Assembly: GCA_022450565.1 (NCBI GenBank) | Contig: JAKUOP010000008.1 | Location: 25,575 to 89,574 of the forward strand | Direction of reading: 5' to 3' | Length of the DNA stretch: 64,000 bases | From: Candidatus Nitrosopelagicus sp. | Lineage (GTDB): Archaea; Thermoproteota; Nitrososphaeria; Nitrososphaerales; Nitrosopumilaceae | Shown: positions 10,059 through 46,867 of the stretch, one piece after another | How positions within the stretch are numbered: the first letter of the stretch is position 1 | How the letters are laid out: every line of letters starts with the position of its first letter | Notes under the pieces: generated by a model | Database searches by the model: none | Told to the model about the DNA's origin: nothing | The model's input: only the letters and a program-made list of their open reading frames with translations | Program-made: the position numbers and the translations under genes

Positions 10059-11384
10059 TTAGCCAAGACCTAATTTTCGCATCATTCCTTGCATTTGACG
10101 TCCTTTTGATGCCTTCATCATATTCTTTGAATTCTTGTAATTTTTCAATAATTCTTTTACTTCGTGCTCAGGCCAACCTGAACCTCTAGCAATTCTTTTG
10201 ATTCTTGATGCATTAAGTAGATCAGGATCAGCTTTTTCTTTTTTGTTCATGCTTTGTATAATGTATCTCCATTTATCAATACGGTCTTCCATTTGTTCAA
10301 GCTGATCTTCTTTAACCATTCCTGAAAGTCCAGGCATTGTTTCCATCAAACTTTGTAGTGAGCCAACTTTTGTTACTTCCTCTAATTGATAGAAGAAATC
10401 TTCCATGTTCATTTTTCCACTAGATATTCTTTTCATTCGTACATCATCAGCCTCATTTTCAAGGCGTTTTGCTAAATCAAGTACGGCCTGCACATCACCC
10501 ATTCCAAGTAATCTACCAACAAATCTAGTTGGTGAAAATTGTTCTAAATCATCAATTCTTTCTCCAGTACCAACATACATGACTTGAGCGCCTGTAGCTG
10601 CAGATGCAGCCAATGCACCACCGCCTTTTGCTGAACTATCAAGTTTGGTGATTACAATACCACCAACAGGTACAGTCTTATGAAACGCCTGAGCTTGAGA
10701 AAAACACTGTTGACCAATTGTTCCATCTATTACAAGTAATCCTAGATCAGGTTCTGCTACTTTGCTAATATCGACCATCTCATCCAAAAGGTCTTTTTCT
10801 TCTTTATGTCTGCCAGCAGTATCAATTAAAATTATATCTAGATTTGAATTTTCAAAATGTTTTAAACCATTCTTCACGATTTCAGCTGAATCAGTATTAT
10901 TTTCTTCTCCATATACCTCAACACCTGACTTCTCACACATTGTTCGGAGTTGAACTAATGCGCCTGGTCTAAATGTATCAGCACCTACTACGCCAATACG
11001 ATAGCCTTGCTTAGTAAGAAATTTAGCTAATTTTGAAGAAACTGTTGTTTTTCCACTGCCTTGAATTCCTAACATCAGAACTTTGTTTATTTTACCTGAT
11101 TTGAAATGAAATTCTGTATCATTTCCTAAGAGTTTTGCAAGTTCATCGTACAGTATTTTTACAATGTGATCTTTTCTGGACAAGCCTGGTGGTGGAGTTT
11201 CATTTAAAGATCTTTCTTCAAGATTTTTAGTAATTTCTAGAACTAGTTTAACATTTACATCTGATTGCAATAAAGAGCGTTGAACATCCTTAGCAAGCTC
11301 TTTAATTAATTCTTCATCAATACCAGATGAGCTAACAATTTTTTTTATTGCTGAACGAAGTCCGTTTTTGAGATTATCAAGCAT
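10059..11384 (-). CDS. srp54: signal recognition particle 54 kDa protein
   Basis: [37 protein letters not shown], methionine-rich M domain. Confidence 0.97.
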
Positions 11385-12066
11385 TATTATCTAATTCAGC
11401 ATCCACTATTTCAAATCTTCCTCTATATCCATCCCAGATTTTTTGGGATTTTATGATTTTAACTGATTTCTGAAACATGGGACAGTCTATGACGAAAGTT
11501 TCTGCTTCTCCACCTTCAAAGTTTAGATTAAAGTGAAATTTCTTTGAAAGATTTTCTAAATTTTGTAGATTATCATAAGTAATTTGCTTCCCCAACCAAT
11601 CATTATCCAGTCCCTCAGTAGTTGTACTGCAAATTATGATTTTGAAATTATCATCTAGTAGGTCTTTCATATATTCTGATGCATTAGTTTTCCATAAAGG
11701 TGAAATTAAATTTAATTTCAAATCATTACATAGTGATTCAAATTTTGATTTTTGAAATTCACTTATTATTCCACCATGAACAATTCCTTCAATTTGAAAA
11801 TCATTTTTAGCATTTTTAATTAATTTGTAGAAAAGTGATACTTCGTCACTAGTTTTAGTAGAGTCTGAAATACCAATTATTTGAGGTATTCTCATAGATT
11901 CAGATTGTAATTTTGTTTGTAAAATGTTATGATAATGAAGAAGATGACTTTCATCTGACTGTGGGATAATTGTAATTAATGCTTCAATGGAATGACCATG
12001 TTTCATAGCCTTGTAAATTGCATAACAACTATCCTTGCCTCCTGAGAAAAAAGATGCTAACTTCAT
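11377..12066 (-). CDS. dph6: diphthine--ammonia ligase-like (Dph6/MJ0570 family) ATP pyrophosphatase
   Basis: MKLASFFSGGKDSCYAIYKAMKHGH (PP-loop); ...NFEGGEAETFVIDCPMF. Confidence 0.85.
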   Translation of the reverse strand: MKLASFFSGGKDSCYAIYKAMKHGHSIEALITIIPQSDESHLLHYHNILQTKLQSESMRIPQIIGISDSTKTSDEVSLFYKLIKNAKNDFQIEGIVHGGIISEFQKSKFESLCNDLKLNLISPLWKTNASEYMKDLLDDNFKIIICSTTTEGLDNDWLGKQITYDNLQNLENLSKKFHFNLNFEGGEAETFVIDCPMFQKSVKIIKSQKIWDGYRGRFEIVDAELDNNA

Positions 12067-12083: not shown

Positions 12084-12148
12084 GGATGCCTCAAAACTCA
12101 TAATCCTCATCAAAAATCAGATGGCTTTTCCAATCATCATTAGCATCC
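12084..12148 (-). ncRNA. box C/D sRNA, D guide predicted to target C34 of elongator tRNA-Met
   Basis: Minus strand GGATGC-TA-ATGATGA(C)-TTGGAAAAGCCAT-CTGA(D')-TTT-TTGATGA(C')-GGATTATGAGTT-TTGA(D)-G-GCATCC; 6-bp terminal stem GGATGC/GCATCC, 13-nt and 12-nt guides. Confidence 0.8.
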
Positions 12149-12151
12149 AAC

Positions 12152-12571
12152 TTAGGATGTCTTTATTCGCATTATTTTTGTTCTTCCCATTACATCCCAA
12201 TACTCAATATCTTGACCTTGCTCAAGTTTTCCTTCTACCTCTTCATCAATCAATTCAACATCAATCGTTTCAAAACTTTCAGAATCCATTACTTGGATGT
12301 CTGATCCAGTGATTGAAATGATTTGTCCGGTTTTTTTATTGATTAATGGAACATGAATTTGCATGCTAACAGGACCTACATGAGGTCGTTTTTGACCATC
12401 AAAAATTCCAACACCCACAATTCTAGCCTTTGCTGCTCCGTGTTTTCCTGGCTTACTTGTGTCATACTCAACTATTTTACAAGGATCACCAGTTGGTTGA
12501 TCACTAACAGGCAATAAAATGTAAGAACCAATCTTCAAAGAACCTAATTCAGATGGTTTGCTCATACTCAA
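12152..12571 (-). CDS. eif5a: translation initiation factor 5A
   Basis: GSYILLPVSDQPTGDPCKIVEYDTSKPGKHGAAKARIVGVGIFDGQKR. Confidence 0.95.
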   Translation of the reverse strand: MSMSKPSELGSLKIGSYILLPVSDQPTGDPCKIVEYDTSKPGKHGAAKARIVGVGIFDGQKRPHVGPVSMQIHVPLINKKTGQIISITGSDIQVMDSESFETIDVELIDEEVEGKLEQGQDIEYWDVMGRTKIMRIKTS

Positions 12572-13298: not shown

Positions 13299-13421
13299 CC
13301 CCACTTAGCTCAGCCTGGTAGAGCTTCCGGCTGTAGTTGTCGGCTTAGGGCTGAAAAACAGCAGTCTATCAGGCATACAGAAACCGGGTTGTCGAAGGCT
13401 CAAATCCTTCAGTGGGGACCA
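13299..13421 (+). tRNA. tRNA-Tyr(GTA) with 46-nt intron (13337-13382) after position 37; CCA encoded
   Basis: Acceptor CCCCACT/AGTGGGG, anticodon stem TCCGG/CCGGG, loop CTGTAG[intron]A, T stem GAAGG/CCTTC. Confidence 0.92.
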
Positions 13422-40161: not shown

Positions 40162-40188
40162 GTAATTTTAGCGTATTTGAAGATAAAA

Positions 40189-40305
40189 GATGCCAGTACC
40201 ACTGCTTCCCAACGGCTCTCGCATGTTAGTAACACAGCAGCGACATTGGGTTTGACTTCCAGGTTCGGAAAGGGACTGGGTCGCACCCCAACGCTATGAC
40301 CGGCT
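40189..40305 (-). rRNA. rrf: 5S ribosomal RNA (ends approximate)
   Basis: Minus strand GCCGGTCATAGCG...CCCAGTCCCTTTCCGAACCTGGAAGTCAAACCC...CATGCGAGAGCCGTTGGGAAGCAGTGGTACTGGC; ends pair GCCGGT/ACTGGC. Confidence 0.93.
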
Positions 40306-40424
40306 TATATTTTCTCATTATCTCTTCTCTATTAAGGTAACGAAATTACATTGATTGTTAATAGAAAATCTAGGAATTGTTTATCTTCAAAGAGGATAAA
40401 TTAAACCCATAAAGGAATATCGAT

Positions 40425-46749: not shown

Positions 46750-46793
46750 ATATAATGAGAAAAACTCACTATAAAACTAACTGAATGAATTAG

Positions 46794-46867
46794 TGGGCCC
46801 GAAGGGCTTCGCTCCCTTGGCTCCTCGGTTATGAGCCGAGTACTCTACTAGGCTGAGTTACGGGCCC
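46794..46867 (-). tRNA. elongator tRNA-Met(CAT) with atypical T loop
   Basis: Acceptor GGGCCCG/CGGGCCC, anticodon stem CTCGG/CCGAG, loop CTCATAA, T arm AAGGG AGCGAAG CCCTT. Confidence 0.93.

Follow-up and report, generated by a model that had tools for sequence, protein, structure and literature searches.

The short spacer between the eIF5A and dph6-like genes of the window, as we call the whole 64,000-nucleotide stretch of Candidatus Nitrosopelagicus sp. DNA analysed here, raises the question of whether it carries a guide RNA and, if so, which nucleotides such an RNA would direct to methylation. A first-pass annotation had proposed a C/D box sRNA for 2'-O-methylation of C34 in an elongator tRNA-Met encoded in the same window. 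Reading of the minus strand returned every element of the proposed anatomy in its place, in the order GGATGC-TA-ATGATGA-TTGGAAAAGCCAT-CTGA-TTT-TTGATGA-GGATTATGAGTT-TTGA-G-GCATCC (Table 1), that is, C, D', C' and D boxes in archaeal order, the D box being UUGA and not CUGA, and a 6-bp terminal stem closing the C/D k-turn. Both guides fall in the range of about 10–13 nt and show at least 9 target pairs spanning the fifth position upstream of D or D'. A strict search for C, D', C' and D boxes in this arrangement together with a stem gave 12148-12084 (-) as its sole match in the window, and found no such arrangement in 150 simulated 64-kb sequences with the window's dinucleotide make-up. A covariance model, built from 17 sequences, scored 94.8 bits at the sRNA, its sole match in the window at E<=0.01. 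The folding energy of the whole sRNA was unremarkable (z = -1.1), as expected for a C/D RNA. Judged from these features, 12148-12084 (-) is predicted to be a canonical archaeal C/D box sRNA.

Table 1. Window coordinates of the predicted sRNA, its elements, the flanking genes and the CAU tRNA of the window.
Feature	Position	Strand	Basis or remark
C/D box sRNA, 65 nt, terminal stem (6 bp) included	12084..12148	-	sequence, covariance model, conservation
Terminal stem, 5' arm GGATGC	12143..12148	-	sequence; pair changes on both sides
C box ATGATGA	12134..12140	-	sequence and alignment
D' guide TTGGAAAAGCCAT, 13 nt, core GGAAAAGCC	12121..12133	-	23S pairing and guide-rRNA covariation
D' box CTGA	12117..12120	-	sequence and alignment
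C' box TTGATGA	12107..12113	-	sequence and alignment
D guide GGATTATGAGTT, 12 nt, core GATTATGAG	12095..12106	-	in register for elongator tRNA-Met C34
D box TTGA, non-canonical	12091..12094	-	alignment, pattern scan
Terminal stem, 3' arm GCATCC	12084..12089	-	sequence; stem covariation
aIF5A/eIF5A gene, upstream of the sRNA	12152..12571	-	Pfam PF21485 and PF01287
dph6-like diphthamide synthase gene, downstream of the sRNA	11377..12066	-	Pfam PF01902, 191.8 bits
CAU tRNA, elongator tRNA-Met in the first-pass annotation	46793..46867	-	most likely tRNA-Ile2(CAU); poorer guide match

The spacers downstream of eIF5A in relatives, located by protein and not by RNA, contain the same RNA in nearly all members of the genus. 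With the covariance model, the sRNA was found in 191 of 201 genomes of the family, covering all 22 genera, in 119 of the 121 family genomes of good quality, and in 205 of 301 genomes of the order, many other families included. A pattern scan of named genomes retrieved 116 loci, thaumarchaeotal or simply archaeal throughout among the titles listed, including Nitrosopelagicus, Nitrosopumilus, Nitrosarchaeum, Nitrosotenuis and Nitrososphaeraceae; a dph6-like motif lies downstream in 112 of these 116. Nearly all of them carry a UUGA or AUGA D box, and family f8 has CUGA/CCGA. In the terminal stem 99.1% of the alignment cells are paired, five of the six pairs have changed on both sides, and covariation as high was reached in none of 500 shuffles. 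The annotation had offered conservation across the spacer as a check of its reading, which is borne out for the boxes and also for the D' guide; the D guide itself has changed in some lineages. The D' core is present in 62 of 63 aligned copies, also in families with a changed D guide. For the D guide the core is GATTATGAG, which 55 of the 63 copies retain, including deeply split lineages (among them families f1, f7, f8 and f13).

The D' guide, for which the annotation had named no target, is thus the more conserved of the two, and its predicted target is a 23S rRNA site with which it both fits and covaries. Its core GGAAAAGCC forms 9 Watson-Crick pairs with 23S rRNA 5'-GGCUUUUCC, the methyl position falling on C2510 (E. 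coli numbering); the chance of such a 9-pair match in 16S and 23S together is about 1.5%. Since the 16S and 23S genes were not found in the window's MAG, the 23S target sequence was taken from relatives. The stretch paired by the D' core is GAUGUCGGCUUUUCC, with C2510 at the methylation position, and the other families examined have GGCUCUUCC in the rRNA and GGAAGAGCC in the guide. The U to C change in the rRNA is accompanied by an A to G change in the guide, and the two letters correspond in 30 of 31 copies (17 A/U and 13 G/C). The only disagreement comes from copy L189 of genome G054, a MAG with 5% contamination; its sequence is of Nitrosopelagicus type, and it was excluded as a probable contaminant. 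The covariation may reflect one or few evolutionary events, perhaps one substitution per side, and is thus strong but not repeated evidence. As the D' core persists also where the D guide has changed, the rRNA half is the older or more constrained function. Matches to 'YGGCTTTTCC' in the own genome were discarded, as they are not rRNA. A 5S rRNA gene is present at window 40188-40307, although the MAG has neither 16S nor 23S.

For the D guide, all tRNAs collected from the search matches were scored. The best match among them was a CAU tRNA lying about 16 kb before the window (C62:9625-9740), with a 41-nt intron at position 30/31 and the stem GCCGGGG/CCCCGGC, which on these features we take as the elongator tRNA-Met. 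The pairing counts 10 Watson-Crick pairs (positions 31-40), two G-U pairs (30 and 41) and no mismatch, with C34 at D+5. The whole guide pairs with the mature tRNA, and all of it but one end base with the precursor; the stretch it addresses is nearly invariant in the pre-tRNAs of relatives. That the D guide is in register for C34 of the elongator tRNA-Met is supported by conservation across the order.

The strongest competitor to a double role holds that the sRNA is essentially a 23S guide, in which D' directs C2510 and the fit to tRNA-Met is secondary or, in some lineages, disused. It can appeal to copies in which the D' guide is kept and the D guide differs (families f3, f4, f12 and f16; G036): an unrelated sequence takes the place of the D guide in L227 (G036), L215/L218 (f12), L222/L224 (f4) and L219 (f3). 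It can also appeal to mutated D guides, which read GATTACGAG in one subclade (G008, G012 and G024, at L067, L071 and L064) and carry a 2-nt deletion in G026. On the other hand, a D guide whose register falls exactly on C34 of just one tRNA, and whose core persists in the great majority of aligned copies across deep splits, hardly looks disused, and we regard a 23S-only RNA as unlikely. Our preferred reading, held with high confidence, is that of a dual guide predicted to address C34 of the elongator tRNA-Met through D and C2510 of 23S through D'; it rests on the anatomy, the conservation, the stem covariation, the in-register complementarity, the guide-rRNA covariation and the presence of fibrillarin and Nop5 genes. 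In the GATTACGAG subclade, retargeting or decay of the D guide is possible. The GATTACGAG guide (L064, L067 and L071) is mismatched to tRNA-Met A35 and would suit a CUCGUAA loop, such as that of tRNA-Thr(CGU).

A second competitor is the target named by the annotation, the CAU tRNA of the window, or all CAU tRNAs together. Three archaeal CAU tRNAs are present in the genome, one of them (L008) being the initiator, with A1-U72 and a GGG/CCC anticodon stem. The acceptor stem of the window tRNA, GGGCCCG/CGGGCCC, differs by one base from that of the genome's tRNA-Ile(GAU), GGGCUCG/CGGGCCC, and because of this the gene is most likely a tRNA-Ile2(CAU) and not the elongator tRNA-Met it had been called. 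The pairing proposed for it was reproduced: 7 Watson-Crick pairs, two G-U pairs, a mismatch at 39 and a pair at 40, to which a mismatch at 41 is to be added. Thus the class of target, tRNA-Met with C34 at D+5, stood, and the gene did not, the true one lying outside the window and pairing better. The seven Watson-Crick pairs across 32-38 are common to all CAU tRNAs, which is what would allow the window tRNA, or every CAU tRNA, to be addressed. However, the mismatches at 39 and 41 and the wobbles at 30-31, against no mismatch in the elongator, and an A-C opposition at position 39 in the initiator and Ile2 tRNAs alike, make this highly improbable, the more so as C34 of archaeal tRNA-Ile2 is converted to agmatidine (PMC8450103, PMC7668247). 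The T loop of the window CAU tRNA (46793-46867) is odd, AGCGAAG, lacking U54 and U55. A bacterial-type initiator tRNA-fMet (L016), on the short contig C50 of this archaeal MAG, was set aside as contamination.

The genomic setting bears on a third possibility, that the conserved stretch is a regulatory or translational element of an eIF5A-dph6 operon mRNA and not a free sRNA. The Pfam domains of both flanking genes agree with the placement in the eIF5A-dph6 spacer given by the annotation: the sRNA starts 3 nt past the eIF5A stop codon and ends 17 nt ahead of the dph6-like ATG, SRP54 coming after the dph6-like gene. Archaeal C/D sRNAs usually lie in spacers less than 25 nt from genes, and most of them are released from longer transcripts by cleavage (PMC7994747). 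The stretch fills the gap between two genes whose pairing is conserved, which would suit an mRNA element. Such an element would scarcely account for four boxes at C/D spacing and two guides in register for a tRNA and for 23S, nor for complete genomes without the sRNA beside eIF5A that carry it elsewhere, about 0.8 kb away in G033 and about 20 kb away in G036; we give it very little credence. That degenerate boxes fell into this arrangement by chance, as their shortness and the one non-canonical D box might suggest, has a negligible probability, being contradicted by the conservation, the stem covariation and the absence from simulated windows.

In archaea, the C/D and C'/D' k-turns are where the RNP proteins L7Ae, Nop5 and fibrillarin come together. 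Genes for Nop5 (PF01798) and fibrillarin (PF01269) adjoin each other in the same genome. The dual-guide sRNA, probably excised from the eIF5A-dph6 transcript, would be bound by the three proteins at its own two k-turns. The D guide would then pair with A31-C40 of the elongator tRNA-Met, fibrillarin would methylate the 2'-OH of C34, and the resulting Cm34 would sharpen the reading of AUG over AUA. The D' guide would pair with 23S GGCUUUUCC after U2506-C2507, leading to methylation of C2510 beside the peptidyl-transferase centre.

Guides of this tRNA class are already known, as the annotation had stated for Cm34 of tRNA-Met: Pyrococcus has a predicted one (sR49), and a 2008 paper gave 18 candidates together with Haloferax, whose tRNA-Met intron is also known (PMC2584109). 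As in those systems, a stand-alone C/D sRNA places at D+5 the C34 of an intron-containing elongator tRNA-Met. The published guides, on the other hand, pair partly with the intron, so that methylation must precede splicing there (PMC2584109), whereas the sRNA described here, with the intron at 30/31, fits the mature tRNA. Compared by published description and not by sequences, it differs from them also by a conserved 23S guide on the same RNA. The Rfam scan at the gathering score returned no C/D family at the sRNA site. The nearest Rfam family is sR41 (RF01126), which has UAUGAG in common with the sRNA and can be aligned to it at all four boxes; its 28.6 bits (E=4.5e-5) do not reach the gathering score of 54. 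sR41 is an orphan, possibly guiding the 23S site equivalent to G1950 and not tRNA-Met (PMC2584109). The tRNA-targeting C/D sRNAs of Pyrobaculum likewise direct one guide to a tRNA wobble base; their other guide reportedly lacks a target (PMC7994747), a statement from which a dual targeting with a covarying, conserved rRNA target would depart. The C/D RNA of the pre-tRNA-Trp intron (Cm34/Um39) is again a wobble-base methylation guide, that one being intronic and the present one intergenic. In the open-access literature on Thaumarchaeota C/D sRNAs or Cm2510, we found no paper describing this sRNA. It is a new C/D family, absent from Rfam, and the predicted dual rRNA/tRNA targeting is its distinctive feature.

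Nitrososphaeria are among the most abundant archaea of sea and soil, and they gain here a conserved guide RNA listed neither by gene annotation nor by Rfam, together with two exact predicted methylation sites in mesophiles, for which few C/D guides have, to our knowledge, been described. The eIF5A and dph6 genes serve two translation-elongation factors. It is conceivable, if rather doubtful, that a single RNP couples methylation of the peptidyl-transferase region with that of the AUG-reading tRNA, and that its placement between eIF5A and dph6 makes it part of a translation-accuracy module under joint regulation that ammonia-oxidizing archaea inherited from their ancestor; were this so, lineages would swap the tRNA guide and keep the rRNA guide fixed.

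A few minor observations concern other RNAs. Among tRNAs, the D' guide matches best at ACGGUUCUUCCAA, in the intron of pre-tRNA-Met L041 (10 Watson-Crick pairs, one G-U, two mismatches); this is probably due to chance, though the stretch resembles the 23S target. A tRNA-Tyr(GUA) with an intron at window 13299-13418 was reported by Rfam and missed by the ARAGORN default scan. Related C/D sRNAs, L234, L235, L236 and L225 (1501-1566), carry GATCTTGAG as their D guide; counted in the same way, the nucleotide it would address for methylation is C34 of tRNA-Leu(CAA) (CUCAAGAUC), for which Pyrococcus also has a guide.
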